From NCBI GenBank assembly GCA_020054205.1, contig JAGVLS010000018.1:62001-126000 (forward strand): a stretch of 64,000 nucleotides of DNA, written 5' to 3'. Under the pieces are notes generated by a model that did no database searches, was not told the origin of the DNA, and worked only from the letters and a program-made list of their open reading frames with translations. This stretch comes from Candidatus Obscuribacterales bacterium (lineage in GTDB: Bacteria > Cyanobacteriota > Vampirovibrionia > Obscuribacterales > Obscuribacteraceae). Of the stretch, positions 39,629-55,359 are shown one piece after another. Positions within the stretch are counted from its first letter, which is position 1, and every line of letters begins with the position of its first letter. Position numbers and translations under genes: made by a program.

Positions 39629-41407
39629 ATGGTTGAGGGACCAGCGCACAAAGATGAAAGGACAAATGAAGAAGTTTTAGATAACTCCACCAATGGAGAG
39701 AATTCTAATTCTTCTGATAATTTGTATGAAGAAGGACGATCAAACTCTAGTGAACATAATAATAAAAACCAGGATCAAATCTTTGTACAGACGGGGTTGC
39801 CTACTAATGATCAATTGTTCCAACAATTGAATGACAATAGCTCTACGTCCTATTTAATAGGGGCAGGTTTGACAGCTGGTGGAGCTAGTTTGGGCTATGC
39901 TATCTATAGAATGTATCAAGCATTAGATTCTGATACAAAACCTTCTGTAGTAAACAACAGCGACGAAATTTTATCCACCGAGATAAATAATGACGCATAT
40001 TTATTGAAGCCTATTCAGGATACTCAGCCACTAAATTTGCAATTACCAGATTCTCCTGGTGTAACCTGGACTGCTAAAGGGGAAATTTCCGAACATAATC
40101 TAGTTGTATTGAAAAATGAAAACTATTCTCATGGACTGACCTTCCATGGCGAATTACCACCGGAGGGATTTAATCCGAAACAAGGTGAATATGGTAATTA
40201 TCTTCCATTTCAGATTGGAAAAACAACTTATTACTTAAACAAAGATAGCCATAAGGTGTATAGTTATTTTGAATTTGGTAATATGCAGGCTTGGACGGAA
40301 GTTCCCTCTTTGAGAGCAATATCGCGGGCCCAATTTGTTTTTAATAACGGCAGTGTCAACAATGAATACCTGAATGCCTTAAAACAAGCTGGTTATATCA
40401 ACTATGATAAACGCACAGACGCTTATGAATTTAACGATCATCCGACAATAACTGATATCTATAACAATACAACAATTAGAGAACCGTTTACTACAAAATT
40501 TTCCTGGGCCGTGCCAACTCCTGAAGCATTATCAGCAATAGCTGAGTTTGCTAAAGGTGAAGGAATTGTTGAAATTGGAGCTGGTACAGGTTATTGGGCA
40601 TCTCTTTTGCAACAAGGTGGTGTATCAGTAGATCCTTATGATAGAACGCCAGTGGAGACCGGAGAAAATACTTATCATCCCCCGAAGGGTGAAAGTGGGT
40701 CAACAAATCAGCTAGATAAGCCAACAAGCTGGACGCAAGTAAAACAGGGAAGTGTAGAGGCTATTGCACCAAATGCGAGCAAAACTCTTTTGTTATGTTG
40801 GCCTCCATGTTTAGACAGTATGGCTGCCCAGGCTCTAAAAGCATATAATGAAGCTGGTGGTCAGCAATTGATTTATATAGGTGATCTGCCTGATAGAGCA
40901 TTTGATGGTGTACTTGGTCACTCTGTAACGGCCGATAGAGAATTTCATCAAATGTTACATGATTCGTGGCAAGTGGAAAGAACTATAGATATTCCTCAGT
41001 GGTATGCTGGTACTGAGCAAATGCAAGATAAAGTGTATTTACTCACTCGCAAAGATACATCTAGTCAAATGCCTCAGACTATTACAGAAATTCCTCCTCA
41101 ATCTTTAATTACTGATTCACTGCCAGAAATAGAAATTATTGAAAGTCCACCAAATGTTGAAAGAAATATAGAATTGGCAAGACAATCTGTTTTGTCTGAT
41201 GGAAAACCAGTTGTGCCCACAGAAAATAAAAGAGCAATTGAAGAAAAACCCAAAGCAGAGTCTGAGGCAAAAGGACGTCGAATAAATGCCAGTGGTAAAG
41301 GAATGATGTTTCTTTTATTAGCTTCTGCTGCTATGAGATTTTGGAGAAATGAAGAAGATCAAATGCAACAAAATGATTTGTCTGACAATTTAAAATTCAG
41401 CGACTAA
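39629..41407 (+). CDS. Large protein with a SAM-methyltransferase-like domain between two membrane helices
   Basis: 592 residues. Residues 1-70 are acidic and Asn/Ser-rich; a first hydrophobic helix at about 73-95 (SYLIGAGLTAGGASLGYAIY); a region of about 100-290 that is soluble and unassigned; a methyltransferase-like domain at about 300-470 (PEALSAIAEFAKGEGIVEIGAGTGYWASLLQQGGVSVDPYD, then KTLLLCWPPCLDSMAAQALKAY, YIGDL, and WQVERTIDIPQWYAG); a linker rich in Pro and Glu; and a second hydrophobic helix near the end (GMMFLLLASAAMRFW). This kind of methyltransferase, with EIGAGTGYWA and LLCWPP, is known in eukaryotes and phages. Substrate unknown. Its 3' end overlaps the minus-strand micro-gene by 18 bases. 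Confidence 0.65.
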   Translation: MVEGPAHKDERTNEEVLDNSTNGENSNSSDNLYEEGRSNSSEHNNKNQDQIFVQTGLPTNDQLFQQLNDNSSTSYLIGAGLTAGGASLGYAIYRMYQALDSDTKPSVVNNSDEILSTEINNDAYLLKPIQDTQPLNLQLPDSPGVTWTAKGEISEHNLVVLKNENYSHGLTFHGELPPEGFNPKQGEYGNYLPFQIGKTTYYLNKDSHKVYSYFEFGNMQAWTEVPSLRAISRAQFVFNNGSVNNEYLNALKQAGYINYDKRTDAYEFNDHPTITDIYNNTTIREPFTTKFSWAVPTPEALSAIAEFAKGEGIVEIGAGTGYWASLLQQGGVSVDPYDRTPVETGENTYHPPKGESGSTNQLDKPTSWTQVKQGSVEAIAPNASKTLLLCWPPCLDSMAAQALKAYNEAGGQQLIYIGDLPDRAFDGVLGHSVTADREFHQMLHDSWQVERTIDIPQWYAGTEQMQDKVYLLTRKDTSSQMPQTITEIPPQSLITDSLPEIEIIESPPNVERNIELARQSVLSDGKPVVPTENKRAIEEKPKAESEAKGRRINASGKGMMFLLLASAAMRFWRNEEDQMQQNDLSDNLKFSD

Positions 41408-41512
41408 ACCAAAGCTGGCAATAAGCAATAAGCAAGCAAAATAAAGAGCAAAGAACCAAACCCAACGGTTAATTAGGTCAATATCACTTAATTTATTTGT
41501 TTCTTTAGCCAT
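41390..41512 (-). CDS. 40-residue membrane protein at the 3' end of the respiratory operon
   Basis: Minus-strand ATG at 41512: MAKETNKLSDIDLINRWVW, then a hydrophobic helix (FFALYFACLLLIASFGLVAEF). TAA at 41390. It follows frhD by 29 bases in the same direction and its weak AGAGAG ribosome site lies upstream of the ATG. The last 18 bases overlap the end of the opposite-strand gene. A likely tiny subunit of the respiratory complex. Confidence 0.5.
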   Translation of the reverse strand: MAKETNKLSDIDLINRWVWFFALYFACLLLIASFGLVAEF

Positions 41513-41541
41513 AGTTTTATTCTCTCTAAATTTCTTTGTAA

Positions 41542-41949
41542 TTATTTTTTTGCTTCTGCCTGAATAGGTTCAAGTTTATCTATATGAGCAATAAATTCTT
41601 TTACGTCATTAATAAAGCGAGCTGGTTGAACTTTAGACAACCATACGCCTAATACACGTCTTCTATCAACAGTCTTTTTCAAACCGGGTGGTCTTTCACC
41701 TAAAAGTCTTTCGCGAATCATTTTATTGCCTTCACGATAATAACAATCACCAATTTGACAGCCAGTAACAATTACTCCTTCTGCTCCAGATTTTAAAGCT
41801 GCCTCAACCATTAAAGGTTGAATCATGCCGGAACAAGGAAATTTCACTATATAAACGCCATTAACATCTTTAAGCTGTCCTTTTTCATCGACATGCTCGC
41901 TTAAATCGCAAGATCGTTCACACATTAGGCTAATTACTTTTGCAGACAT
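41542..41949 (-). CDS. FrhD/MvhD-like iron-sulfur electron-transfer protein
   Basis: 135 residues. Hydrogenase delta-subunit domain (FrhD/MvhD, PF02662): C10 and C14 (CERSC), FPCSGMIQPLMVEAALKSGAEGVIVTGCQIGDCYYREGN with C39, C64 and C69. In methanogens MvhD carries a [2Fe-2S] cluster and passes electrons to heterodisulfide reductase; here it sits in a complex III/IV operon, right after the cytochrome b-ferredoxin gene. It probably takes or delivers electrons from that ferredoxin domain. Confidence 0.85.
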   Translation of the reverse strand: MSAKVISLMCERSCDLSEHVDEKGQLKDVNGVYIVKFPCSGMIQPLMVEAALKSGAEGVIVTGCQIGDCYYREGNKMIRERLLGERPPGLKKTVDRRRVLGVWLSKVQPARFINDVKEFIAHIDKLEPIQAEAKK

Positions 41950-41966
41950 TTTTGAATTTCCTTTAA

Positions 41967-43112
41967 TTATCCCTGTTGGGCTAAAGCCTTAATTTTGTTA
42001 GTGACATCAGTATCTAATAGATCTGGTAAATCAATAGCGTCAAATGCACAAGCACCAACGCATACACCACAACCAGAACAACGATATGGTTTTACAGTAG
42101 CTAAAAGTTTAAATCTAGAACCAGCAGGTGCTGGCACCATTTCAATTGCTGCATATGGGTAATCGTTGGCACATAATGAACAACCAGTACATTTGTTCAA
42201 AACAACTTCCGCTGCTTCTACTTCTTTTGTTCTGACAAAATATGGTAAATAGCAAAGTAATGCTGTGCCGCCAATCATAACAGCCCAGAATGCCCACATA
42301 GGAGCATTAGCCATAATGTAATAGGGCCATAAGAAAAACCAGTCCATTTCAAACGAATTGGGTTGATCAGTTAAATGAGCCATACCGCCTGGTTCCATAT
42401 GAATAGGAAAGGCAAAAACAACAAGCATAATTGTTGCCATCAATATGTAATTGATAGCAGGTGGCGGAGTAACAACTGGTCTTTGCATACGAATATAGTG
42501 AATCCAAAGACCAAATAATAATGAGAATGAAAGTCCAATATGAATAAACAAGAAATTGGACATGGTGAAATTAGAGATAGTTTGTCCATTTAAAAACCAT
42601 GCTCTCAAACCATTACCAATAAAAGGTAGAGCCTCAAGTGCTGCTACTGTCATCCGAGTCAATACCAATGATCTTTGATCCCAGACTAAATAATAACCAG
42701 TTTGTCCAATGACAAGTACTAAAAGTAAAAGGACAACACCGCTTAACCACTGAACAATGCGATATTGACGATATCTATCAGTAAACCATACCCGTGCCAT
42801 GTGCAATAAAATTGTAATTACCATCGCATCCCCAGCGTATCGGTGTATGCCGCGAATTACTACACCAAATGGAATAGTATTAGTAATATAGTCAACGGAG
42901 CTGTATGCATTTATAAGTTGAGTAGATGCGTAAGCATTGTCGATGGTTGGAATGTAATAAGCAAATAATAAAAGTCCAGATAAAAACAGAACCCATAAAT
43001 AAAACTGAGGCAGAGCGCCGTGATAATAAAATGGATTGTATTTACTGGAGAAAATTTTATTAGTCCAGTTTTCAAAATTTTGAGTAGCTGTTGTTAATGG
43101 TTCAGTGTACAT
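41967..43112 (-). CDS. Cytochrome b fused to a C-terminal ferredoxin domain
   Basis: 381 residues. Membrane part resembles cytochrome b/b6 N-terminal domain: about seven helices with all four heme ligands by position, H90 and H104 in one helix (14 apart), H191 and H205 in another (14 apart). The Qo-like text is EMDWFF where canonical proteins have PEWY. The C-terminal 80 residues carry two cluster motifs: C308, C311, C314 with Y318 in place of the fourth cysteine before Pro319, and a complete C345, C348, C351, C355. The ferredoxin part faces the cytosolic side if the topology is standard. The frhD gene follows 17 bases downstream. Confidence 0.85.
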   Translation of the reverse strand: MYTEPLTTATQNFENWTNKIFSSKYNPFYYHGALPQFYLWVLFLSGLLLFAYYIPTIDNAYASTQLINAYSSVDYITNTIPFGVVIRGIHRYAGDAMVITILLHMARVWFTDRYRQYRIVQWLSGVVLLLLVLVIGQTGYYLVWDQRSLVLTRMTVAALEALPFIGNGLRAWFLNGQTISNFTMSNFLFIHIGLSFSLLFGLWIHYIRMQRPVVTPPPAINYILMATIMLVVFAFPIHMEPGGMAHLTDQPNSFEMDWFFLWPYYIMANAPMWAFWAVMIGGTALLCYLPYFVRTKEVEAAEVVLNKCTGCSLCANDYPYAAIEMVPAPAGSRFKLLATVKPYRCSGCGVCVGACAFDAIDLPDLLDTDVTNKIKALAQQG

Positions 43113-43122
43113 ATTCTATGGC

Positions 43123-43512
43123 TCATTTTTTTACGGGAATAACTGTTTCTTCTTCGGCATCTAAACGTCCAACGGCACAGATAGCAATTGCACTTGCTAT
43201 TAAGGCTGCACCTAAGAAAAATGAATATAAATAATATGGATAATTTGGATCTTCGGCAATTAGTTTACTTAGATCAGCGGCATGCACAGAATCAAATTTG
43301 CCAGCAATTTTTAAACCAATTTTTGCTAGCTCTTCGAATTTTTGCATTATTTCTTTGCTGCGTATTGGTGAGTCGCCAGAAATTGGCTTTACTTCATGTA
43401 CTTGAGCAGGAATAAGCTCAGCAGCTGGCATAAATACAGTCATTATGAAAGTAGATGCAGCAAATGCAAGTACAACACATATAACAGTTATTGTTAGTTT
43501 ATGAGCTTTCAT
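43123..43512 (-). CDS. Small two-helix membrane protein of the respiratory operon
   Basis: 129 residues. One helix at the N-terminus (LTITVICVVLAFAASTFIM), a soluble middle (ISGDSPIRSKEIMQKFEELAKIGLKIAGKF), then a second helix (LYSFFLGAALIASAIAICAVG) and a charged tail. No metal-binding motifs. Unknown family. Its ATG overlaps the previous gene's stop by one base (TAATG). Possibly a structural subunit of the bc-like complex. Confidence 0.55.
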   Translation of the reverse strand: MKAHKLTITVICVVLAFAASTFIMTVFMPAAELIPAQVHEVKPISGDSPIRSKEIMQKFEELAKIGLKIAGKFDSVHAADLSKLIAEDPNYPYYLYSFFLGAALIASAIAICAVGRLDAEEETVIPVKK

Positions 43513-43796
43513 TACTTGCTCTCCTTTTCTCTCATTGATTGAAGTTTAGCGTGAATATACTCATAGAAGGTAATATGCTTTTTTAGACTACCTTTTGCTT
43601 TTTCATCAAAATAAATCCAATATCCTTGTAATAAAAGCAAAATAATAGTCGACAATGTGCCAGCCGCTAGTAGCGCCCAGTCCATAAAAGTACCAGATTC
43701 ACATACTTGGCGCCAACCAGCAAAAAACCAAGACAAAGTAATTACTGAGGCGATGAAAGCAGATAATTTATATGACCAGTGAATACTCATTATCAT
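43512..43796 (-). CDS. Small two-helix membrane protein of the respiratory operon
   Basis: 94 residues. Two helices (SAFIASVITLSWFFAGW, WALLAAGTLSTIILLLLQGYWIYF) and a basic tail. No recognised family, no cysteine pairs. Stop overlaps the next gene's start by one base. Placed between the larger cytochrome b and the second two-helix protein, it is likely a small structural subunit. Confidence 0.55.
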   Translation of the reverse strand: MIMSIHWSYKLSAFIASVITLSWFFAGWRQVCESGTFMDWALLAAGTLSTIILLLLQGYWIYFDEKAKGSLKKHITFYEYIHAKLQSMREKESK

Positions 43797-43802
43797 AACC
43801 CT

Positions 43803-45599
43803 TTATTTAACACCTGCTTCTTGAGCAACTTTGGGAGATGGAGGAGTTTGAGCTTGTTTGCTTTCCGCTTTAAATTTGTAAGCGGCAAAGAAACATATTA
43901 TTGCTACAACTGGACCAGCTATCATCCAATACCAATCTAAATCAGGAACTGGCAATGGATATTTTGTGGTTTCGTTAGCTGCTATTAGTCCTGGTGTTAG
44001 TCTATCCACAAGTTTTACATAATCAAAACAGAAACAATTGGATATCATGAAATCAATCATGCCATGATATTTAACTGCTACATGATTGGCTGTGTACTGA
44101 AATGTTGGAATTAGTTGGAAAAGAATATCAAATGGTGTTGATTGCTGACAAACAGATTGTATTTTTAAAAGCAAATCTTTGTTAGCAGGATTAGCACTAT
44201 CAGCTAATATTGTTGCCCAATTAGAAGGTTCCCAGAAGGTTGATAATTTTATTGAACTTCTTACTAATCCTTCAGCAGTTTCAGCGTTATTGCCCATAAA
44301 TGGTCTCATTACGCCATATACAGCTGCATGCCATAGTGGGTCGATAAACATTTCTGTTTTAGCCATGAAATAGTAAGCAATAGCTAAAACTGTTTGAATT
44401 ATAGCTACCCAACCCATAATAATGGCGCCTTTTGCCATTTTTAGTTTTTGTTTTACATCTGGGTTATTCCAAAAAACCATTAATTGCAAAATAATACCAA
44501 TATCAATTGGTAAGAATAAAAAGTCGCGCCAATAAGGTGGATCGTTATGAATATTGGCAATATTTACAATGATGAGTCCTGAAAATATTATCCAAGTCAA
44601 AAATCCCATAATTGTAACTAATAAAACTAATGGGCGTTTTGTTATGTCTTTTTCTGGTCCAGTTATCTCAACATCAATAAATGGCAGGAGAATAACGCTT
44701 AGTGGAATAACAAGAGTAATGTATGTGGCAACAACTGGCTCTAGATATTTATACATTTGATATAAGCCTAAGAAATACCAGTCGGATAATATAGGTAATG
44801 GTGTGACATCAGGATTGCTGCGATGTCCCAAAGCTGCCGGCATAATAATTGATACAACAACAAGCATAGCGATAATTACTGAACGTTTTAACCAACTAAG
44901 TGGCACACGTTTGTAGCCTGTTTTTAAGAAATATAGCTCTACAAAAATTAGTGGTATTAAAGAAAATGCTAAATGAAGAGAAAAGAATCTTGTAATTGTC
45001 TCTTGTGTAATAGCGCCACCAGCACCTAATAAAAATTCTGCTGTGTTCCAACCCATGTGTAATGATTTTACAAGTGGTTGATAGAAATCTCCTATGCCAA
45101 TGAATTGATCCATATAAGTTGGGAATGTGGCAAATACTTTTGTAGCCCAAAAAGCACGTTGGTTCCAAATCAAAAGATAGCCAGTCAATCCAGAATACAT
45201 TGATAGAAGAAGTGTAATTAAGCCAATTGCTATATTGAATTCCTTACCAGGCTTATAATCAGCCGCTAAGAACATACGATAAACACGCATGGTGGCAGCA
45301 ATGATCATAGCGTCAGCACCATATTTGTGAATGCCACGGATTATGTTGCCAAAAGGAATATGATGTTGAATATATAAAATGGAATCAAAGGCACTAGTTT
45401 TGGTTGGGATATACCACATGATAAGTAGCAATCCACTTGCCATGACTAAGAACCAAACTAAATAAAATATTGCGCCTAGCGAGTAAAAAGGATTGGTTTT
45501 TGCTTCATTGGCATAATGCTCATCGAATATATCGATGTTGGCAAGTCTTAGTTTTAGCCAATCTGTTGCACGATTTATAGAGCCAAGTATATTTTCCAT
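43803..45599 (-). CDS. Cytochrome b/b6-type protein lacking the n-side heme ligands
   Basis: 598 residues from the ATG at 45599, chosen because AAAGGA precedes it; the frame is open 8 codons further, over the Rieske gene. Residues about 40-425 resemble cytochrome b (helices with NIIRGIHKYG and RFFSLHLAF). By position the p-side heme ligands H91 and H209 are present. The n-side partners (14 residues after H91; 14-15 after H209) are R105 and Y223/F224. The Qo motif is SDWY (272-275) in place of PEWY. Beyond residue 425 a further 170 residues carry two or more helices and a soluble segment without CxxCH. The Rieske gene is 16 bases upstream. Confidence 0.85.
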   Translation of the reverse strand: MENILGSINRATDWLKLRLANIDIFDEHYANEAKTNPFYSLGAIFYLVWFLVMASGLLLIMWYIPTKTSAFDSILYIQHHIPFGNIIRGIHKYGADAMIIAATMRVYRMFLAADYKPGKEFNIAIGLITLLLSMYSGLTGYLLIWNQRAFWATKVFATFPTYMDQFIGIGDFYQPLVKSLHMGWNTAEFLLGAGGAITQETITRFFSLHLAFSLIPLIFVELYFLKTGYKRVPLSWLKRSVIIAMLVVVSIIMPAALGHRSNPDVTPLPILSDWYFLGLYQMYKYLEPVVATYITLVIPLSVILLPFIDVEITGPEKDITKRPLVLLVTIMGFLTWIIFSGLIIVNIANIHNDPPYWRDFLFLPIDIGIILQLMVFWNNPDVKQKLKMAKGAIIMGWVAIIQTVLAIAYYFMAKTEMFIDPLWHAAVYGVMRPFMGNNAETAEGLVRSSIKLSTFWEPSNWATILADSANPANKDLLLKIQSVCQQSTPFDILFQLIPTFQYTANHVAVKYHGMIDFMISNCFCFDYVKLVDRLTPGLIAANETTKYPLPVPDLDWYWMIAGPVVAIICFFAAYKFKAESKQAQTPPSPKVAQEAGVK

Positions 45600-45615
45600 A
45601 TGTCCTTTTCTTATA

Positions 45616-46182
45616 TTAGGCAATACCGCCAGCTTCTAACGATAGGATACTAATTTTTTCTCCCTCTTTTTTAACATCAAACTTCCTTGGTGGTCTAGGT
45701 GCTGGACCACTGACAACTTTGCCACCTTGAGCAATATCATAAACACTCAAATGACACGGACAAGCAAATACAGGACCATTTGGTTTGTAATTGTAGCCTT
45801 TCAAACATTCATCTGGGTCTTTGACAAAGTTGAAAATGCAGCCTAAGTGAGGACAGATACGGCTATAAGCGACCACATCACCTGAAGGTAATTTGACTGC
45901 AAAACCTGGAATTTTTCTCACTTCCATACCTTCTGGATTGTATTCTTTATATGATTGATTGAACATAAATGGAATACATGTCCAGGTATCAGGAAAATCT
46001 TTATCTGTAAATTCAACTGGTTTTAAAGGTTTTGGTTGATCTGATGGGCCTAAAAGATCAAGCGGTTGAATTGTTGGACGTAAAAATCTCAATAGCGGTG
46101 AAGCTACTAAACCGAAGGTAGCAGCTAACGGAATTGCTGCTAACACTTTTACTAATGTTCTGCGTGATGTGCCTTCTGTCAT
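45616..46182 (-). CDS. petC: Rieske iron-sulfur protein with a Tat-like signal
   Basis: 188 residues. The N-terminus has a twin-arginine SRRTLVKVL motif and one helix (about 15-32), as in Rieske proteins exported by Tat and held by their signal anchor. Cluster motifs C110, H112, C115 and C141, C143, H144 (CPHLGC and CPCH) give ligands C110, H112, C141 and H144 with a C115-C143 disulfide. It is the [2Fe-2S] partner of the cytochrome b proteins downstream, taking electrons from quinol at the p-side site. Confidence 0.96.
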   Translation of the reverse strand: MTEGTSRRTLVKVLAAIPLAATFGLVASPLLRFLRPTIQPLDLLGPSDQPKPLKPVEFTDKDFPDTWTCIPFMFNQSYKEYNPEGMEVRKIPGFAVKLPSGDVVAYSRICPHLGCIFNFVKDPDECLKGYNYKPNGPVFACPCHLSVYDIAQGGKVVSGPAPRPPRKFDVKKEGEKISILSLEAGGIA

Positions 46183-46190
46183 AACTTCCC

Positions 46191-46955
46191 CTACTGTTTT
46201 TTAGTATTTTGGTCTTTGCTGGCCTCAGCTATAGTTGAAGCATTGCTTATGTGGAATTTGCGGACATACTGGACTAATTTGTGTATATAAGCTTCATCAA
46301 ACTTGATATTTTTTGTTTTATCCTGCTTACCTAGGAAATTAGGCATACCCTCCCAAGCAATACCATTTGCTATATGATCAAATAGTACTGCATCTGTTCT
46401 ATCATAAAATCTGTTGAAACGTTGGAAATTAGCTGGTGATGGTTCTAAATTATGTGCCAATGGTCCATCGCCATCTCCTTTTGTACCGTGACAAACAGCA
46501 CAATTAGAACCAAATACAGGATCAATTGCCTCAATTTCTTTATCTGTCAAAGCTGGGGCTGAAAATGATCTTGTATAAACAACTAAATCCCAAATTTTGT
46601 TGTCGCTAATTTTGCTACGTAAACTCTTATGATTAGCGTCTCCTTTAGCAAGCATTTCATATATTTCAATTGGTTTTTTGCTTGCTCCCCAAAGTGGATT
46701 TGTTAAATCAACTATTTTTCCATTTTCATATTTTGCAGTGCCAACGCCGGCTGTTGAATGGCATTGTGCACAATTCATTTGGTTGTAAACCAATTTGCCA
46801 TCAGGAATTGAAGGAGCAACATCTGGATAAACAATTTCCGATAATGGAGCGGCAGTAGTTTGTTTCTCAGCCAAATTTGTTGTTACTGGCTTTTCAGAAC
46901 AAGCTGTTAAAAGCAGTATAGCGGGTAATAAAAGTAATAGTTTTTTGTCTTTCAT
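46191..46955 (-). CDS. Di-heme cytochrome c lipoprotein
   Basis: 254 residues. Lipoprotein signal (LLLLLPAILLLTAC, lipid on C19). Two c-heme sites: CAQCH (C62, C65, H66) and CAVCH (C152, C155, H156), each followed by a cytochrome c-like helix and a distal Met candidate (WEGMPNF for the second). Likely the periplasmic electron carrier between the Rieske protein and CcoN/CcoO; it may stand in for CcoP, which is otherwise missing. Confidence 0.9.
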   Translation of the reverse strand: MKDKKLLLLLPAILLLTACSEKPVTTNLAEKQTTAAPLSEIVYPDVAPSIPDGKLVYNQMNCAQCHSTAGVGTAKYENGKIVDLTNPLWGASKKPIEIYEMLAKGDANHKSLRSKISDNKIWDLVVYTRSFSAPALTDKEIEAIDPVFGSNCAVCHGTKGDGDGPLAHNLEPSPANFQRFNRFYDRTDAVLFDHIANGIAWEGMPNFLGKQDKTKNIKFDEAYIHKLVQYVRKFHISNASTIAEASKDQNTKKQ

Positions 46956-46973
46956 TTGAATTATCTGATTTCT

Positions 46974-47183
46974 CTAGTAATGGAAAAATGGTATCCAGGA
47001 AAATAAAGCCCACGTGACGATAAGCAAAAACATAATAATAAGAGGTAATGGCGGTGGACCTTCACCAATTCTGTATTCCGAAACTTCTTCGAAAATCTCA
47101 TTGTCTACAGCTGCTTTAGTAATATTGTCTGCGTTGGGAGTTACTATTTTTGCTGTCGACTCATTTTCAGGGTTCTCAGGCAC
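46974..47183 (-). CDS. Small single-helix protein of the oxidase operon
   Basis: 69 residues. A polar acidic N-terminus (about 45 residues) and one C-terminal helix (PLIIMFLLIVTWALFSWIPFF). Unassigned; in size and topology similar to small accessory subunits such as CcoH/CcoQ, but there is no matching motif. Confidence 0.45.
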   Translation of the reverse strand: MPENPENESTAKIVTPNADNITKAAVDNEIFEEVSEYRIGEGPPPLPLIIMFLLIVTWALFSWIPFFHY

Positions 47184-47195
47184 CTTTCCTTCTCC

Positions 47196-47435
47196 TTATG
47201 ACTTAGTTTGTGTTCTTAATTTTTCAATTTTGGATCTGGCAGCTTGAGACAAGCTTGTATCATCGCCATCATCCAGCATTTCAAATTTAGAACCTTCAAT
47301 GTCTTCAAACTCACCACTTTTGAAAGCCCATCCCATTGCAACAACAGCAGCAATGAAAAACAAGAGACATACTCCAAAAGCTACATAAACACCTGTTTGC
47401 AATCCAGCTTGATTTAAGATGCAATTTGGACACAT
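47196..47435 (-). CDS. ccoS: CcoS-like protein with an N-terminal cysteine pair
   Basis: 79 residues. Starts MCPNCILNQ, then one helix (GVYVAFGVCLLFFIAAVVAMGWAF) and KSGEFEDIEGSKFEMLDD, the CcoS-type motif (W-A-x-x-S-G-x-x-x-D-x-E-G). CcoS is needed for cofactor insertion in cbb3 oxidases. The CPNC pair is unusual and could bind metal. Followed by the small helix gene. Confidence 0.6.
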   Translation of the reverse strand: MCPNCILNQAGLQTGVYVAFGVCLLFFIAAVVAMGWAFKSGEFEDIEGSKFEMLDDGDDTSLSQAARSKIEKLRTQTKS

Positions 47436-47438
47436 AAA

Positions 47439-48386
47439 CTATTCTCCTCCTGAAGCTGGTTCCCATTGTTGATGGGATAACTTAGGTAATTTTATTTGTT
47501 GAACTGGATTTAGTTGATCGACATTGTCTATTACTTCTTCTTTTTCTTTTGGTAGTGTTTTGAGATAAGCAACTAAATACCATCTTTGTTCTTCTGTTAA
47601 CACTTCGCCAAAACGTGGCATTCTTGTACCAACTACTCCTTCGGTTACGCGATAAAACCAAAATTCGTCAGAATATTGTTTGTAGAATGGTCTTGTAAAA
47701 TTAGCTGGTTTTTTCTCCAGCGATAAAGCGTTTGGTCCGTTGCCATATCCTTGCAGTCCGTGACAAGCAGCACAATTTTGCGTGTAAATTCCACGACCAG
47801 CATTAGCTGAGGCATCAGCTTTTGTATCTACGTGTTTGCGAGCCAAAAGCTCTTTACCATAAGTGCTTTTGTTTGTGTATTCATCAGGAGCTTCAACAAG
47901 TTCAGTAACTTTGCGTCTATTGCCAAGTGTTTGTATATAAGCAACCAAATCATTCATATCTCGATCGGACAAATAACTAAAACTTGGCATTATAGAACCT
48001 GGCTTTAATGCTCTTGGATTAATCAAATGTGCTTTTTGCCATTCAGAAGGGAAACGACCACCTTCATTAGTTAGATCAGGACCAGTACGTGCTGTACCTA
48101 ATACGTGTGGTGTTTCATCAACATAATCGCCAGCTTGAACAAGAGGTCCATAACCACGATCTTGCAAGCGAGTAAATTGAGTATGACAATAAAAACAACC
48201 TTCTCTTACATATATTTGTCTACCTCTGGCTGGATCGGTTTGAGCTAGTTTATTCTTTTCATACTGATTGCCATGTCCAGAGGGTGATGGGTTGAATATA
48301 ACCATTGGCAGCAAAACTGTAGAGCCGATTATGGCAAAGAAAGTAATGATGACAGCATTTGCACCTTGGCGGAAATTGCTTTTCAT
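47439..48386 (-). CDS. ccoO: CcoO-type cytochrome c fused to a second cytochrome c domain
   Basis: 315 residues. One membrane helix near the N-terminus; CcoO-like heme site CFYCH (C64, C67, H68) with HTQFTRLQDRGYGPLV; the text MPSFSYLSDRDMNDLVAYIQTLGN is typical CcoO. A second cytochrome c module carries CAACH (C205, C208, H209) with RMPRFGEVLTEEQRWYLVAYLKTLP, more like a stand-alone cytochrome c or CcoP domain. So one chain carries two hemes, possibly replacing part of CcoP. Overlaps ccoN by 1 base. Confidence 0.9.
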   Translation of the reverse strand: MKSNFRQGANAVIITFFAIIGSTVLLPMVIFNPSPSGHGNQYEKNKLAQTDPARGRQIYVREGCFYCHTQFTRLQDRGYGPLVQAGDYVDETPHVLGTARTGPDLTNEGGRFPSEWQKAHLINPRALKPGSIMPSFSYLSDRDMNDLVAYIQTLGNRRKVTELVEAPDEYTNKSTYGKELLARKHVDTKADASANAGRGIYTQNCAACHGLQGYGNGPNALSLEKKPANFTRPFYKQYSDEFWFYRVTEGVVGTRMPRFGEVLTEEQRWYLVAYLKTLPKEKEEVIDNVDQLNPVQQIKLPKLSHQQWEPASGGE

Positions 48387-49771
48387 TAAGCTTTTACCTC
48401 CTGAGCTAATTTGCTTTCTTTTTCGGCAACAGGAGTATAGAAACTTCTATAGGCGTTGTAGGCAAATAAAACTTGACCTAAAAGAATCATTATTCCGCTA
48501 AATGCTCTGATTGCCCAATAAGGTCTGATTTGTAGTCCCCATTGATCAACAGGAATGCCCATCGCCCAACCGGCAGCTTGTACTAAACCAGCAGTAGTGA
48601 GAGATAACATCATAATTGTAAAACCAAGTGTTTTTAGCCAATAATGCGCTCTGATTAAACCGTGTGAATACCATTTACGTCCAGTTAACCTTGGCAATCC
48701 ATAATATAAAGCAGCAGTCAATATAAAAGAGAAAGTACCTAATAAAGCTAAGTGAGCATGTCCGACTACCCATTGCGTAAAGTGGATATACCAATTAATC
48801 CAACGTGTAGCTTGGAATGGACCTTGGATACAAGTGATGTAATAAAAAATTGCCGATGTAACAGCAAAACGCAATGGTAAGTCAGTAACTACTAATTGCC
48901 ATTTACCTTTCATAGTCATAAAGAAATTGGTTAGTACTGTAAATACTGGTACTAATAAAAATATAGACGATATTATTGCAATTGCTTTTAGCCATTCAGG
49001 TACTGGCGATTGCAATATATGGTGAGTACCAGTTGGAGCATAAAATAAAGCAATACCCCAAAATCCAATTAAAGATAAACCGTGGCTATATAAAGGACTA
49101 TTGGCAAGCCTGGGTAATAAGTAATACATCATGCCAACGCCAACTGTGGTAAACCACATACCTAATATATTGTGTCCATAAAACCAGCCAACAATTGCAT
49201 CGTTTAAACCAGGCAATTGCACAAATGTTCTTTGTCCAATTACATATACGAGTGGAAACCAGAACAATGCACCAAGAAAATACCAAAGACTGACGTATAG
49301 CTTTCTTACTTTTCTATTTACTACAGTTTGCCAAACATTTAGTCCAACTAATACAAGTAAGACAACTGCAATTACATCAAGTACTGCACCTAATTCTGCA
49401 TATTCTCTTCCTTCGGTATATCCATTTAGTAAAGTGCAGAAAGCACCGACCATTAATAAATTCCATCCCCACATGGCAGTATTGCCAAGGCGTTCACTCC
49501 ATAAAGGAGATTTAGTTAATGAAGGGATCATATAAAACATGGCGCCAATGTATCCCATAGATAGCCAACCTATAGCGACAACATTGACATGCATCATTCT
49601 CAAATGTGGCATCGATAGCTGGGGCACATTATGGACTAAGTCTGGCATTGAAAATTCCAGTCCGGCAAATAGCCCAGAGCCCATGCCAATTACTGACCAA
49701 AACAAAGCTGATAGCATGAAATTGCGACTGGCACTGCCTTCCTTGTCGCTTATAAGCCTGTCAATAAACAT
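48386..49771 (-). CDS. ccoN: cbb3-type cytochrome c oxidase subunit I
   Basis: 461 residues, twelve or so helices. Ligands visible: LRMMHVNVVAIGWL (heme b H61), FYGHNILG (H200, CuB), GTHH (H250, H251, CuB), VVGHAHLALLG (H338 heme b3, H340 heme b), and Y244 in ALFYAPTGTHH placed like the cross-linked tyrosine of C-family oxidases. Reduces oxygen to water with proton pumping, usually at high oxygen affinity. It is the first gene of the operon, which runs to 41390; the 359-base gap upstream should hold the promoter. Confidence 0.95.
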   Translation of the reverse strand: MFIDRLISDKEGSASRNFMLSALFWSVIGMGSGLFAGLEFSMPDLVHNVPQLSMPHLRMMHVNVVAIGWLSMGYIGAMFYMIPSLTKSPLWSERLGNTAMWGWNLLMVGAFCTLLNGYTEGREYAELGAVLDVIAVVLLVLVGLNVWQTVVNRKVRKLYVSLWYFLGALFWFPLVYVIGQRTFVQLPGLNDAIVGWFYGHNILGMWFTTVGVGMMYYLLPRLANSPLYSHGLSLIGFWGIALFYAPTGTHHILQSPVPEWLKAIAIISSIFLLVPVFTVLTNFFMTMKGKWQLVVTDLPLRFAVTSAIFYYITCIQGPFQATRWINWYIHFTQWVVGHAHLALLGTFSFILTAALYYGLPRLTGRKWYSHGLIRAHYWLKTLGFTIMMLSLTTAGLVQAAGWAMGIPVDQWGLQIRPYWAIRAFSGIMILLGQVLFAYNAYRSFYTPVAEKESKLAQEVKA

Positions 49772-50130: not shown

Positions 50131-50790
50131 TCAATTTTGATTATCTTTGTTACTTCCATCTTCGTTGTTGGAGGGCATTTTAGTACTTTCTGGTAATTGC
50201 AAATTGATGCCGTTAAATTTATTCATAGAAAAATCAATTCCATTCTCAACCCAATTTGTCAGAGCGTCTGTGCAGAGTTCAATCACTTTGTTGTAAAGAT
50301 CGATATCTTCATTTGGTATTTTTGCCAAAACGTACTGAGCACGTTTTTCGCCACCAGGATCTGGACCAACACCGATTTTTAAACGATCAAAACTATTTGA
50401 TTCATTGTCAGCTAATAAATAACTAATTTCACTTAAAATAGATTCAATGCCGTGTTGTCCACCAGCACCGCCACCTTTTTGCATTCTGATTTTGCCAAGC
50501 GGTAATGATGAATCATCATGAACAACAATCAATGAGTTAACTGAAATTTTGTACCAAGATAATAGCGCTTGTACAGCTTTGCCAGAGAGATTCATATATG
50601 TACTTGGCTTAGCAAATAATATATCTTCGCTGCCAATTTTGCTTTTTGCAATGTCAGCAAATAAATTATTTTTGCTTACAAAATCAGCACTATATTTAGT
50701 GGCAATATGCTCAATGGCGAGAAAGCCAGAATTATGTCTTGTTAAACGGTATTCAATGCCTGGATTGCCAAGCCCTACTATTAGCTTCAT
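50131..50790 (-). CDS. pth: Peptidyl-tRNA hydrolase
   Basis: 219 residues. MKLIVGLGNPGIEYRLTRHNSGF start, the catalytic His of TRHN, LFAKPSTYMNLSGKAVQALLSWYK, LIVVHDDSSLPLGKIRMQKGGGAGGQHGIESI and RLKIGVGPDPGG. Releases tRNA from stalled peptidyl-tRNA. About 25 residues longer than minimal Pth because of a polar C-terminal tail (LQLPESTKMPSNNEDG). It stands alone on this strand, with gcvPA divergent. Confidence 0.96.
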   Translation of the reverse strand: MKLIVGLGNPGIEYRLTRHNSGFLAIEHIATKYSADFVSKNNLFADIAKSKIGSEDILFAKPSTYMNLSGKAVQALLSWYKISVNSLIVVHDDSSLPLGKIRMQKGGGAGGQHGIESILSEISYLLADNESNSFDRLKIGVGPDPGGEKRAQYVLAKIPNEDIDLYNKVIELCTDALTNWVENGIDFSMNKFNGINLQLPESTKMPSNNEDGSNKDNQN

Positions 50791-50959
50791 AATTTACACT
50801 TTAGTTTTTAGCATTTTAGCTTCAGTTAATATCACATAGCTAATAAGCTAGATTTTATTAAAGGACTTATCGTTACAACGTGATAAATTTCCAGGCATAT
50901 AGTTGAAACTTATAATTAGTACTTGAGAGATGACTAAATAGCCAAGAGAGTTTACTTAA

Positions 50960-52399
50960 ATGTCTGACCATAAAGAAGAACAAATTCATTTTCCATATCT
51001 TCCGCATACTAAGGAAGATAGAATTAAAATGTTGGAGGCGATCGGAGTCAAAAGTTTTGAAGAACTTATTGCTCAGATACCTAAAGACATTAGAATTTCC
51101 AATCTCTCTATAGCTAGTGGACTAAGTGAATTAGAACTTAGTCAAAAGATAAATCAACTTGCTCAGAAAAATAAGCCGCTATCTGAACAAATTTCATTTG
51201 TTGGTGGTGGAGTATATAGAAGGTTTGTACCAGCGGTGGTACCAAGCATAGTTTCAAGATCTGAATTTGCCACAAGCTACACTCCTTATCAACCAGAAGT
51301 GAGCCAAGGGACTTTGCAAGCAATTTATGAGTTTCAAACTGTTATATGCTTGCTCACTAATATGGATGTAGCTAATGCTTCTATGTATGACGGACCAACA
51401 GCAGCGGCTGAAGCTTGTGCTATGGCTACTCGTATTACCCAACGTAATAAAGTCCTTGTTGCTCACAATATAAATCCAGAATATTTTTCTGTTGTAAAAA
51501 CATATACCAAAACATGTGGGTTAGCCTTTGAAACAATTGATTTTAGTGCTAAAGAAGGAGCAATAGATAGCAATAAACTCAATATTGACGAAAGTACAGC
51601 CTGCGTTTTAGTACAATATCCAAATTTCTTTGGTTGTTTAGAAGACTTAGATGTTCTTGCTCAAAAAGTTCATGCAGCAAAAGCATTATTAATTGTTGCT
51701 TGTGATCCCATTAGCTTAGGATTATTAGAAGCACCAGGAAGTTTTGGTGCCGACATTGTGGTAGGGGATGCACAGCAATGTGGAAATAATTTATCATTTG
51801 GTGGTCCAACAGCAGGTTTTATGGCTTGTCGCAATCAATTTGTTCGACAATTGCCTGGACGTTTAGTTGGTGTTACTCAAGATAATAGAGGGCAACGTGC
51901 TTTTACTCTTACTTTGCAGACACGTGAACAACATATACGCAGAGCAAAAGCTACTTCTAATATTTGTACCAATCAAGCATTGAACGCACTCACTATGCTT
52001 GTTTATTTGTCACTCTTAGGTCCTAATGGACTAAAAGAAGTAGCTGAGCTTAGCTTACAATCTGCACATTATTTGAAAGAAGAATTATCTCGTATCCCTA
52101 ATATAACCATTTATTTTACAAAGCCATTTTTTAACGAATTTGTTATAGAAACCCCATATGAAGCCAAGCAAGTATTAACTTTATTGAGAGAACAAAATAT
52201 ATTAGGAGGTTTAAATCTAGATAGATTCTATCCAGATAACGTGCATTTCAAGAAATGTATTCTTATTGCTACAACCGAGATGAATTCAAAAGACGACATA
52301 GATAAGTATATTGAAGTAATGAAGCAAGTTATTAGTAACTTAAATGGCAAAGCTCATAGCGGTAATTGCATTTCCCCCCTTGTCAGTAAGTGCTTATAA
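50960..52399 (+). CDS. gcvPA: Glycine dehydrogenase (decarboxylating) subunit 1
   Basis: 479 residues, typical for the split P-protein's subunit 1. The family text is evident: FPYLPHTKEDRIKMLEAIGV, FVGGGVYRRFVPAVV, YTPYQPEVSQGTLQAIYEFQT, MDVANASMYDGPTAAAEA, DAQQCGNNLSFGGPTAGFMA and GRLVGVTQDNRGQRAFTLTLQTREQHIRRAKATSNICTNQAL. Works with subunit 2, which carries the PLP lysine, in the glycine cleavage system; that subunit is not in this window. Likely single gene with its own promoter. Confidence 0.96.
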   Translation: MSDHKEEQIHFPYLPHTKEDRIKMLEAIGVKSFEELIAQIPKDIRISNLSIASGLSELELSQKINQLAQKNKPLSEQISFVGGGVYRRFVPAVVPSIVSRSEFATSYTPYQPEVSQGTLQAIYEFQTVICLLTNMDVANASMYDGPTAAAEACAMATRITQRNKVLVAHNINPEYFSVVKTYTKTCGLAFETIDFSAKEGAIDSNKLNIDESTACVLVQYPNFFGCLEDLDVLAQKVHAAKALLIVACDPISLGLLEAPGSFGADIVVGDAQQCGNNLSFGGPTAGFMACRNQFVRQLPGRLVGVTQDNRGQRAFTLTLQTREQHIRRAKATSNICTNQALNALTMLVYLSLLGPNGLKEVAELSLQSAHYLKEELSRIPNITIYFTKPFFNEFVIETPYEAKQVLTLLREQNILGGLNLDRFYPDNVHFKKCILIATTEMNSKDDIDKYIEVMKQVISNLNGKAHSGNCISPLVSKCL

Positions 52400-52483
52400 G
52401 ATTTACTGAACATACTCACAATATACTTATGTATAATGAATTCTTTGACTGCAATTAAATTTAGGCAATAAGACAAAGCGATT

Positions 52484-53290
52484 ATGGAATCAAGAGATTC
52501 AATTACTTCTCAAAAATTACCTGGTGAGGAATCTGTTTTAAAAACGGGTGATTTGCCACCGGAAAACAACAATAAAATGGATAACGAAAATAAAAAGTCA
52601 GCACAGGGTGGCGTTTTTGGTTTCATTAAAGAAATTGTTGAGCTTGTTTTTGTTACTTTAATACTATTGATTATTATTCGTTGGGCATTGGCTGAAGCTC
52701 GTTATATTCCAAGCAGTTCAATGGAACCAACATTACAAATTGATGATCGTTTATTGGTAGAGAAAGTATCTGGGCATTTTGGCTTACCCATTAAACGAGG
52801 CGATATTTTAGTTTTTTATCCACCACCTTGTGAAATGGGCGGTAAAGACTTAAGCAATGATCCTTTAACTGTTTTAGGACGTTTAACCGGACTACCATTT
52901 TTTCCTAATGAACCAGCTTATATAAAAAGAGTAATTGGTTTACCTGGTGACAAAATTTCTGTAAAACGTGGCTTAGGCGTTTTCATTAATGATGAGCGTT
53001 TGGAAGAACCTTATATTAAAGAAGCACCCAATTACAGTTTAGAAATGCTAGGTGATATTGGTGGACGTTCTAGTTCTGGTGTTTTAATTCGTCCTTATGG
53101 TGAGTCAGAAGAGCCAATTATTGTCCCAGCTGGCCAATTATTTATGATGGGAGATAATCGCAATAATAGTGAAGATTCCCATGTTTGGGGTTGTTTGGAC
53201 CAAAAACGAGTTATAGGTAGAGCTTGGTTGTTATTTTGGCGTCGCCTTGGTGCTCCACAATACCCAGGATTTTTGCAACTCGATAAATAA
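52484..53290 (+). CDS. lepB: Signal peptidase I
   Basis: 268 residues. An extended polar N-terminus of about 45 residues, one membrane helix (about 50-70), then IPSSSMEPTL (catalytic S79), YIKRVIGLPGD (catalytic K148) and MMGDNRNNSEDSHVWG. Cleaves signal peptides on the outer face of the inner membrane. Matches the many secreted proteins in this window. Starts 84 bases after gcvPA and probably has its own promoter. Confidence 0.96.
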   Translation: MESRDSITSQKLPGEESVLKTGDLPPENNNKMDNENKKSAQGGVFGFIKEIVELVFVTLILLIIIRWALAEARYIPSSSMEPTLQIDDRLLVEKVSGHFGLPIKRGDILVFYPPPCEMGGKDLSNDPLTVLGRLTGLPFFPNEPAYIKRVIGLPGDKISVKRGLGVFINDERLEEPYIKEAPNYSLEMLGDIGGRSSSGVLIRPYGESEEPIIVPAGQLFMMGDNRNNSEDSHVWGCLDQKRVIGRAWLLFWRRLGAPQYPGFLQLDK

Positions 53291-53334
53291 TCTAATTATT
53301 GTTTTTAATTGGCAAAATAGCTATTTTGAGTTAG

Positions 53335-53499
53335 CTAACAATTTGTAACAGTTAAATGAGCTAATGAAAGCAATAAGGCAAATGTGCCAATAGTTGCCCA
53401 TTTCTCATGTTGCCAAGCTGATTTCTCTATGATTTTATGTTGGTCAAAGAGAATTCTTATTGTTCTGGGTATAAATAACTGGGCAGGTAAATATGCCAC
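53335..53499 (-). CDS. Possible 54-residue membrane protein in the lepB/HD-GYP gap
   Basis: A GTG-started minus-strand frame (start 53499) encodes MAYLPAQLFIPRTIRILFDQ, a polar middle (KIIEKSAWQHEKW) and one hydrophobic helix (ATIGTFALLLSLAHLTV). Composition and hydrophobicity look gene-like, but there is no ribosome site upstream, and TAA precedes it closely. The gap has no other gene candidate. Confidence 0.3.
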   Translation of the reverse strand: MAYLPAQLFIPRTIRILFDQHKIIEKSAWQHEKWATIGTFALLLSLAHLTVTNC

Positions 53500-53517
53500 G
53501 GTTGCGGGGGAACATTA

Positions 53518-54975
53518 ATGGCCAGAGGCTATAACTCCAGGGCTTATAGAAAAACATCTTCTGATGATGGAACTACTAATATAGTAGGTCAAGAAAAGAT
53601 GAATGTTCTGACAACAGAAAAGATTCATCAACTTGAATCTGAAATAGCCAATAGAGAAGTTTCACTAATTGAAAAAGAAATTAAATTGGTTGGTTTGCAA
53701 CAAGAAATAGAGGCGTTGAGACCACTTTCTGGTTTGTACCGTGTAGTGCAAGCAATGACTACAGAAAGAAAACTTGAGTCATTATTGGAAGTAATTACAC
53801 GTGAAACAACAGCCATGTTGCATTGTGATCGTTTAAGTGTTTTTGTTTTAGATAAACATCATAGTGAATTATGGACACAAGTAGCCCAAGGTTTAGAAGG
53901 AATTCGCACTTTGCGTATGCCTTTATCTGGTACAAGTATTGTTAGTTTATGTGCTCGTACTGGTCGTGTAATTAACATAGCAGATGCTTATAGTGATCCA
54001 CGTTTTGATTTAGAAGTGGATAAAATTACTGGTTATCAGACAAAAAATATTCTTTGTGTGCCGATGCTTAATCGCAATGGCGACATAATTGGTGCTTTTG
54101 AAGTATTAAATAAGAATCAAGGCACATTTACGCAAGAAGATGAAGAATGGCTGAAAGCATTATCAGCTGTGGCTGGTGGACTGATTGAACAAGCTCAAGC
54201 ATATTCTGAAATTGAAAATTTTGTTGATAGAACATTAGAAACGTTAGCACAAACTATCGATAAGCGGGATCCACTTACTGCAGGACATTCAGTGCGGGTA
54301 ACACGTTATAGCTTGTTAATAGGCGATAGTTTGACCATCTCAAATGATGAGAAAGATGTTTTGCGTTATGCAGCTATGATGCATGATTATGGAAAGATTG
54401 GTGTGCCTGAGTCAATATTATGGAAAAATGGCAGACTAACTCCAGAAGAATATGCATGTGTGCAAACACACGCCAAAATTACATATGATTTGTTATCTAA
54501 TTTGCCTTTTACTGGGCGTTTAGCACAAGTACCTTTTGTTGCATCGTGCCATCATGAAAAGCTTGATGGAACAGGTTATTATCGTGGGCTAAAAGGAAGT
54601 GAAATTCCTTTTTTAGCAAGATTAATTACAGTAGCTGATGTTTTTGATGCATTAACATCTGTACGTCATTATCGTAATCGCATGTCTATAACTAAAGTAT
54701 TTGAAATTATGGAATCTGGACGTGAAAATCATTTTGAACCAGAAGTAGTGGATGTATTTTATGGTTTACCATGTGATCGTGTTCTTAAAGTCATGGAATC
54801 AGAAAGAGGACAAGTAGTACCAGCTGAGCTTGATTTGTTTCAAAATATAAGCTGGTTGAGATTGATAGAACTATGTCAGGGAGCAAGACCTAAAGTTCAC
54901 GAAGAAGGATTGAAAGATTTGTTTTATCGAATTTACAATGCTAATCTTCCTGCTGACTATCAAGAACTCGACTAA
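53518..54975 (+). CDS. GAF-HD-GYP domain protein (c-di-GMP phosphodiesterase candidate)
   Basis: 485 residues. A coiled region at about 30-70, a GAF domain (about 75-225; TAMLHCDRLSVFVLDKHHSELWTQVA), a linker and an HD-GYP domain (about 230-425): ALAQTIDKRDPLTAGHSVRV-like start, MMHDYGKIGVPESIL and HHEKLDGTGYYRGLKGSEIPFLARLITVADVFDALTS. The GYP motif is GYY here. Hydrolyses c-di-GMP in the family; the change may reduce that or alter specificity. A ribosome site (GGGGGAAC) precedes the ATG. Confidence 0.88.
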   Translation: MARGYNSRAYRKTSSDDGTTNIVGQEKMNVLTTEKIHQLESEIANREVSLIEKEIKLVGLQQEIEALRPLSGLYRVVQAMTTERKLESLLEVITRETTAMLHCDRLSVFVLDKHHSELWTQVAQGLEGIRTLRMPLSGTSIVSLCARTGRVINIADAYSDPRFDLEVDKITGYQTKNILCVPMLNRNGDIIGAFEVLNKNQGTFTQEDEEWLKALSAVAGGLIEQAQAYSEIENFVDRTLETLAQTIDKRDPLTAGHSVRVTRYSLLIGDSLTISNDEKDVLRYAAMMHDYGKIGVPESILWKNGRLTPEEYACVQTHAKITYDLLSNLPFTGRLAQVPFVASCHHEKLDGTGYYRGLKGSEIPFLARLITVADVFDALTSVRHYRNRMSITKVFEIMESGRENHFEPEVVDVFYGLPCDRVLKVMESERGQVVPAELDLFQNISWLRLIELCQGARPKVHEEGLKDLFYRIYNANLPADYQELD

Positions 54976-54999
54976 TAGTGATTTCATTGCGTGATTTAA

Positions 55000-55359
55000 T
55001 TGAATGATTATCAAAGTCAATTTAAGTCGATAGAAGAGTTTCTCAAAGAAACTAGCGCAAAGATTTTTTCAAAAATTGACCAATTAACCTTTAAAATGTT
55101 AGTTAATTGCTTAAAAAGCAATGATTATTATGTAGTAGCTGATGCTATTGATCAATTAGTAAAAGAAAAAAAACCATTAGCAATAGCACCTTTATACTTA
55201 GTATATTCTCGTCATCCAAATGAAAATATCAGGGCTAAGGCTAAACAAGCTTTAGACAAATTAGACCCAAATGGGCAAGTGCTTGAATTAACAAAAGATA
55301 AGTCAACCGAACAAGCTGTGGCTGACCTAGTTAAAGAATATGGACATTTTGCTCGGTAA
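55000..55359 (+). CDS. Small HEAT-repeat-like protein
   Basis: 119 residues from a TTG start at 55000. Helical repeats (NDYYVVADAIDQLVKEKKPLAIAPLYLVYSRHPNENIRAKAKQALDKL) resemble HEAT/ARM-type proteins of the PBS-lyase kind. It begins 24 bases after the HD-GYP gene, so the two are probably in one operon. Role unknown, perhaps a protein-protein adaptor. Confidence 0.6.
   Translation: MNDYQSQFKSIEEFLKETSAKIFSKIDQLTFKMLVNCLKSNDYYVVADAIDQLVKEKKPLAIAPLYLVYSRHPNENIRAKAKQALDKLDPNGQVLELTKDKSTEQAVADLVKEYGHFAR

Follow-up and report, generated by a model that had tools for sequence, protein, structure and literature searches.

Two cytochromes b with complementary losses, a cbb3-type oxidase and a ferredoxin–FrhD pair share a conserved operon in an Obscuribacterales genome

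We analysed a stretch of 64,000 nucleotides (the window) from Candidatus Obscuribacterales bacterium (GCA_020054205.1), positions 62001–126000 of a 338-kb contig (JAGVLS010000018.1; G000:C15 in our collection) in a 3.3-Mb genome that is 93.7% complete. The window carries a respiratory operon of twelve genes, all on the minus strand between 49771 and 41390 and separated by a few bases or overlapping (Table 1); the initial annotation, made from the letters of the sequence, had described at least twelve tightly spaced genes on one strand, which the Pfam matches and the spacing bear out. Among the products are the subunits of a C-family (cbb3-type) oxygen reductase, a di-heme cytochrome c, a Rieske protein, two unlike cytochromes b (called cytbL and cytbFd here) and an FrhD protein. 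The main finding, which the initial annotation had missed, is that the losses in the two cytochromes b, as judged from their motifs, complement each other: cytbL keeps the quinol oxidation (Qo) site and the ligands of the p-side heme only, and cytbFd keeps all four heme-binding histidines next to a decayed Qo site. We lean towards the reading that the operon encodes an asymmetric heterodimeric menaquinol:O2 oxidoreductase, in which a Rieske/cytochrome b part would be wired to the cbb3 oxidase and would have a cytoplasmic iron–sulfur (Fe–S) port.

In an alignment to the solved cytochrome b6, the heme ligands H86, H100, H187 and H202 correspond to H99, R113, H217 and Y231 of cytbL (residues are numbered from a TTG start, although translation more likely begins with the ATG at 45599). 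The ligands of the p-side heme bL, H99 and H217, are invariant in all 68 sequences of cytbL from the class (Melainabacteria/Vampirovibrionia), and the two positions that would hold the ligands of heme bH are occupied by Arg (57 sequences) or Lys (11) at 113 and by Tyr at 231 (68 out of 68). The Qo loop of cytbL reads SDWY in 68 out of 68 sequences, and its cd1 helix (WNQRAFWATK) is invariant save for one F-to-Y change. In cytbFd, all four heme histidines are found in 71 out of 71 class sequences and the Qo motifs are degenerate: the stretch equivalent to PEWY varies (mostly xDWF), and the cd1 helix no longer has its W, A and K. Both proteins have the four-helix heme core of Rieske/cytochrome b complexes, and the Rieske protein has both of its ligand motifs; of the four bL/bH histidines, cytbL is without the two for bH (68/68), and the Qo motif of cytbFd is degenerate. 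H31 of cytbFd was also considered as an n-side residue shared by all, and was dropped because some phyla have T or L there.

The operon is conserved as a block. In a neighbourhood set of 72 class loci that includes the window, all 60 untruncated loci have the gene order ccoN-ccoO-ccoS-diheme-Rieske-cytbL-sm2-cytbFd-frhD-membr40, although sm2 is under the detection level in one of them; the remaining loci end at contig borders. Nearly all genomes of the order carry the cytbFd gene. A match to FrhD (PF02662) occurs in 47 of the 53 order genomes and, for the class, in 78 out of 382, each time as a single copy directly behind cytbFd. Four genomes (G227, G233, G237 and G285) have an operon-type ccoN and no FrhD match, and their contigs stop inside the operon; apparent absences of FrhD were not accepted as real losses, as those followed up are contig ends. 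The initial annotation had assigned FrhD and the ferredoxin to the oxidase operon, and would have given this up had relatives never carried frhD and the ferredoxin-fused cytochrome b together with the oxidase genes; the opposite is seen. Outside the class, a scan of named genomes, based on the best 80 of 547 relatives and hence a lower bound on the distribution, added Acidobacteriota (mainly Holophagaceae), one Symbiobacterium genome (Bacillota), Armatimonadota and Deinococcales, at 37–42% identity. These carriers have the same block wherever the contig is long enough, with small rearrangements: ccoS is relocated to the far end of the block in Acidobacteriota, and the oxidase genes come after, not before, the rest of the block in the Armatimonadota record. 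The genes of the block rearrange between phyla yet stay together. Because the whole block, now known from five phyla, recurs in dozens of genera, chance or a local accident is excluded. Cytochrome b loci from other members of the phylum (L034–L041 and L170–L172) were considered as the same complex and set aside as different complexes. Two loci from another class of the phylum (L036:5862-10650 and L037:1091-6065) encode a different complex III with a Rieske protein, a b6-like cytochrome b, a subunit IV-like protein, a cytochrome c with six CxxCH motifs and a separate dicluster ferredoxin gene.

The complementary loss pattern is also found in the four phyla outside the class. In a maximum-likelihood tree, each of the two cytochromes b has a clade of its own (100/99 in both cases) that extends over the five phyla, and within the class the pairwise p-distances of the two proteins correlate at 0.94; most simply, therefore, the pair would have arisen once and travelled together since. 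That the two clades are sisters is not secure, as the branches are long and the outgroup is narrow. Another way to read the losses is that cytbL binds heme bH by unusual ligands, in which case the operon would encode an ordinary symmetrical bc complex plus an extra cytochrome b. The strict conservation of Arg/Lys and Tyr at the ligand positions in the class fits this idea, and so does the His kept at one of them in Symbiobacterium. But H99 and H217 are the sole invariant histidines of cytbL (19-sequence alignment), and the residues at the two positions switch between phyla (Y, R or H at 231, where R is found in Acidobacteriota and H in Symbiobacterium only; R or K at 113), unlike a maintained ligand pair, and we regard this alternative as quite improbable.

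The C-terminal dicluster ferredoxin of cytbFd and the FrhD protein both match the NCBIfam model of HdrA2, a natural HdrA–MvhD fusion. Positions 571–642 of the model match residues 300–379 of cytbFd, and positions 649–776 match residues 4–131 of FrhD; the end of cytbFd and the next gene are therefore collinear with the ferredoxin–MvhD tail of HdrA2. Only these two segments of the model match, and the FAD/thioredoxin-reductase domain of HdrA2 is absent. The best solved relative of FrhD is MvhD of the Mvh–Hdr complex (5odc_D, E-value 3e-30). Cys10, Cys39, Cys64 and Cys69 of FrhD are invariant (69 out of 69 class sequences); seven ferredoxin cysteines of cytbFd are found in 71 out of 71 class sequences and the eighth in 70. 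The exception is the window, where the fourth cysteine of the first ferredoxin motif is replaced by Tyr (Y318, TAC, 42159–42161) in this genome only, which is either a private mutation or an assembly error; a family trait was ruled out, since 70 of the 71 have the cysteine. As the N-terminus is cytoplasmic in the established topology of cytochrome b and an even number of helices precedes the ferredoxin, this domain would lie on the cytoplasmic side.

Apart from a weak ferredoxin match, no other HdrA-like gene was found in the genome with the HdrA2 model, and neither a NiFe hydrogenase nor NuoF was detected in it. With no NiFe hydrogenase and no HdrA in the genome, we rejected a role of FrhD in serving a hydrogenase or Hdr here. 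A 443-aa open reading frame (ORF), the only protein of the genome with two CCG domains, was also rejected as a part of Hdr, being probably more GlcF-like to judge from its length. A simpler view, in which the ferredoxin and FrhD are passengers of an ordinary operon for complexes III and IV, can draw on the known adjacency of these complexes in Melainabacteria (PMC6349859). But the cysteines of FrhD and of the ferredoxin are conserved over five phyla, the linkage is perfect and a fusion protein exists (see below), so this view is already contradicted and we give it almost no weight. The initial annotation had noted that bc and C-family oxidase genes lie close together in Melainabacteria, and this was indeed known, as stated in PMC6349859 with credit to Soo et al.

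On a plasmid of Defluviimonas sp. SAOS-178_SWC, an alphaproteobacterial isolate, we found cytochrome b, dicluster ferredoxin and FlpD/FrhD in one chain of 526 residues. This chain aligns with cytbFd over its full length (32%, E-value 1e-60), its tail aligns with FrhD, and it keeps every heme and ferredoxin ligand. Its gene neighbours encode a heme-copper subunit I (NO-reductase- or oxidase-like), a COX2-like protein, heme o synthase (cyoE) and SCO, and the cluster contains neither a Rieske protein nor cytbL. Such a natural single-chain fusion is strong evidence that cytbFd and FrhD act as one functional unit, and that a unit of this kind need not have a Qo-type cytochrome b in order to serve a heme-copper reductase. 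The low-potential connection on the n-side proposed in the initial annotation gains support from this fusion as well as from the collinearity with HdrA2.

The same chain, which occurs without cytbL, also fits a division of the operon into two enzymes: a quinol oxidase without a Q-cycle, made of cytbL, the Rieske protein, cytochrome c and cbb3, and a separate n-side quinone reductase or oxidase, made of cytbFd and FrhD. Membership in one operon is no proof of contact, which leaves room for this division. The losses are complementary, however, rather than independent; a cytochrome b with a Qo site and no bH would have no outlet for the second electron; and no untruncated operon examined has one cytochrome b alone, with both kept together through the rearrangements. 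We consider two separate enzymes unlikely, though less so than unusual bH ligands.

In the heterodimer that we favour, cytbL and cytbFd would pair with each other rather than form the usual homodimer of cytochrome b, and quinol would be oxidised solely at the Qo site of cytbL. The first electron would pass from the Rieske protein to the di-heme cytochrome c, CcoO, CcoN and O2; the second would pass from heme bL of cytbL to its counterpart in cytbFd and on, via bH there, to a quinone at the n-side Qi site of the same protein. The crossing from bL to bL would be required because cytbL is predicted to be without bH. Neither protein could run a Q-cycle by itself, as each would hold a heme bL but Qo would be confined to cytbL, and bH and the n-side site to cytbFd; paired in one dimer they could, provided that electrons cross from one heme bL to the other. 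Such a transfer is fast enough in bc1 dimers engineered so that it is the sole route (PMC4330944). FrhD and the ferredoxin tail would form an Fe–S wire on the n-side that ends at bH of cytbFd. In an input mode, a cytoplasmic donor would feed this port and Qi would receive one electron from Qo and one from the port, so that a cytoplasmic reductant would be respired to O2 with the full yield of the Q-cycle, two p-side protons per electron; in an output mode, with electrons leaving via the port, the complex would bifurcate the electrons of quinol. Taken in full, the proposal is of a natural and obligately asymmetric bc complex in five phyla, which would send all low-potential electrons over a bL–bL bridge and respire a ferredoxin-level cytoplasmic donor directly to O2 via an HdrA/MvhD-type port on cytochrome b; this we put forward tentatively, as something short of an even chance.

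As for the direction of the port, we slightly favour input over output in view of what the HdrA tail is known to do and of the arrangement in Defluviimonas. With the port as an exit, the same heterodimer would deliver the low-potential electron via bL, bL, bH, ferredoxin and FrhD to a cytoplasmic acceptor, driven by the reduction of O2. The anatomy would be identical, strict coupling to a high-affinity oxidase would provide the pull, and there is a precedent in the anammox Rieske/cytochrome b complexes of Kuenenia with n-side NAD(P) modules, for which PMC12954380 proposes NAD(P)H formation by such a route. But in the complexes known to contain it, the HdrA tail serves for electron input, the Defluviimonas chain beside a heme-copper reductase with no Qo cytochrome b or Rieske protein fits input better, and electrons that leave would have to run against the membrane potential, to its negative side. 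We regard the exit as the less likely use of the port, but as a serious alternative.

Several observations count against the wired heterodimer as a whole. A shared operon is by itself insufficient to establish one complex, or a heterodimer, and cytbL is not needed everywhere, as the Defluviimonas chain without Rieske protein and cytbL makes plain. There is no donor gene for FrhD in the operon. The cytbL of Symbiobacterium (L243, 7810–9306) keeps a His at the position of Y231, opposite an Arg, possibly as a remnant of an old bH ligand of helix D. The n-side glycine position of helix C in cytbL (134) is Gly in four out of 17 sequences and mostly Ala, Ser or Cys in the others, i.e. relaxed with no bulky filling; because it holds small residues, the bH pocket does not clearly appear closed. 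(A bulky residue at position 131 was considered as filling this pocket and rejected, as the alignment to b6 puts the true glycine at 134.) The predicted structure of cytbFd, of moderate confidence, matches the fold of a full-length cytochrome b; that of cytbL is poor (pLDDT 61) and was set aside as evidence.

In the literature that we searched, which did not include Soo et al., there is no report of complementary cytochromes b or of an HdrA-type port, and matches for a heterodimeric cytochrome b concern engineered bc1 or cytochrome bd. The physiological need for electron transfer between the halves of bc complexes has so far been argued from engineered mutants; if the proposal is true, evolution has stripped one half of Qo and the other of bH, which would make the bridge indispensable and directly testable in nature. 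An aerobic respiratory complex would then carry an Fe–S relay of the methanogen type in relatives of Cyanobacteria, Acidobacteriota and others, with a possible entry for cytoplasmic electrons where complex I is without the NADH module, and the complex would offer comparison material for ferredoxin–quinone cycling at b6f.

Table 1. Genes and sites of the operon in window coordinates, with the Defluviimonas fusion
Feature	Position	Strand	Description
ccoN	48386..49771	-	Catalytic subunit of C-family (cbb3-type) oxygen reductase; 461 aa; PF00115, 272 bits; first gene of the conserved block
ccoO	47439..48386	-	Fused to a second cytochrome c domain; 315 aa; PF02433, 100.7 bits, and Cytochrom_C
ccoS	47196..47435	-	CcoS/FixS-like assembly protein; 79 aa; PF03597, 33.2 bits, above cut-off
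Small single-helix subunit	46974..47183	-	GTG start, uncertain; 69 aa; C-terminus ...FSWIPFFHY; homologous ORFs in the same gap
Di-heme lipoprotein cytochrome c	46191..46955	-	At the place of cytochrome c1/CcoP; 254 aa; PF13442 and PF00034; two CxxCH; lipobox LLTAC
Rieske [2Fe-2S] protein	45616..46182	-	188 aa; PF00355, 35.6 bits; ligands CPHLGC...CPCH conserved
cytbL	43803..45623	-	Large cytochrome b; PF00033, 81 bits; Qo site SDWY and WNQRAFWATKV; p-side ligands H99/H217; n-side ligands absent
cytbL codon 113	45285-45287	-	Arg; partner bH-ligand change (ligand-column alignment)
cytbL codon 231	44931..44933	-	Tyr at the position of b6 H202, a bH ligand (ligand-column alignment)
sm2	43512..43796	-	Small membrane protein; 94 aa; position kept in all phyla; no family match
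sm1	43123..43512	-	Small membrane protein; 129 aa; fast-evolving; gene at the same place in relatives
cytbFd	41967..43112	-	Cytochrome b with C-terminal dicluster ferredoxin (residues ~300-379); 381 aa; PF00033, 95 bits, and Fer4; H90, H104, H191, H205
frhD	41542..41949	-	FlpD/MvhD-type [2Fe-2S] protein; 135 aa; PF02662, 71 bits (cut-off 22); Cys10/39/64/69
membr40	41390..41512	-	40-aa single-helix membrane protein; last operon gene; same position in relatives
Cytochrome b-ferredoxin-FrhD fusion	NZ_CP156080.1 18082-19662 (L263:8845-10425)		Defluviimonas plasmid

The oxidase is divergent: CcoN scores 272 bits against TIGR00780, under the equivalog cut-off of 583. The pair CcoN and CcoO that defines cbb3 oxidases is present, with COX1 and FixO both above the Pfam cut-offs. 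The di-heme lipoprotein matches the CcoP model TIGR00782 weakly (40 bits, cut-off 180). The small helix gene of the initial annotation is real and conserved, but its frame is 46974–47183; the ORF at 46961–47101, in another frame, shows no conservation and was discarded. The encoded protein has no Pfam match. ORFs ending in ...SWIPFFGY or ...WIRPSGT fill the same gap in class relatives, Acidobacteriota, Deinococcota and Symbiobacterium, and the C-terminal motif is present in 55 of 63 class loci and seven of nine loci outside the class. Relatives have a gap of ~360 bp between sm2 and cytbFd, where sm1 stands. In the flank of the operon (50131–55000), pth is on the same strand and gcvPA and lepB are divergent, a flank that is kept in much of the order. 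On the other side, a 592-aa protein is encoded on the plus strand (39629–41407), with a methyltransferase-like VEIGAGTGYWA motif and no Pfam match; the 3' end of its gene shares 18 bases with the last gene of the operon. Elsewhere in the genome (G000:C22:213951-215285) there is a second COX1-family gene, in an open frame of 763 aa, the size of a quinol NO reductase, and similar frames are found in most order relatives.

The 'combination' of complexes III and IV in Melainabacteria described in PMC6349859 is almost certainly the same operon, given there as petB/petC near a C-family oxidase; the portion of that paper available to us says nothing of FrhD, of a ferredoxin tail or of lost ligands. 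Like bc1 and b6f, the system has the cytochrome b fold, a Rieske protein, a p-side cytochrome c and a Qo site of the PDWY/PEWY kind, but it has two unlike cytochromes b (a predicted heterodimer) instead of a homodimer, and a fused ferredoxin and FrhD are added. It differs from b6f also in the absence of the Cys35 for heme c_n (Y/F in cytbFd, variable in cytbL) and in that its proteins are unsplit, unlike b6/subunit IV. It shares with the bc–cbb3 and bcc–aa3 supercomplexes of complexes III and IV the single operon and a predicted path of quinol electrons to a heme-copper oxidase via membrane-bound cytochromes c, whereas the asymmetric cytochrome b pair and the n-side ferredoxin/FrhD are particular to it; a physical association of its subunits would be predicted from the operon conservation. 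The Rieske/cytochrome b–NAD(P) oxidoreductase of Kuenenia stuttgartiensis (PMC12954380) likewise has an n-side Fe–S electron route, but it has a b6-like cytochrome b with subunit IV, multiheme c and a flavin module, and in the accessible portion of the paper neither a loss of bH nor complementary cytochromes b are reported. With HdrA2 and HdrABC–MvhAGD the operon shares a ferredoxin domain followed collinearly by an MvhD domain, but cytochrome b replaces the flavin-bifurcating part, and no HdrBC, hydrogenase or HdrA was found in this genome. The proposed heterodimer resembles the B-B and BS-B fusions of Rhodobacter capsulatus bc1 (PMC4330944), with Qo in one half, the n-side path in the other and bL–bL as the only link; those are laboratory constructs, whereas the arrangement here would have arisen in nature, long ago, and would be linked to an oxidase and an Fe–S port.

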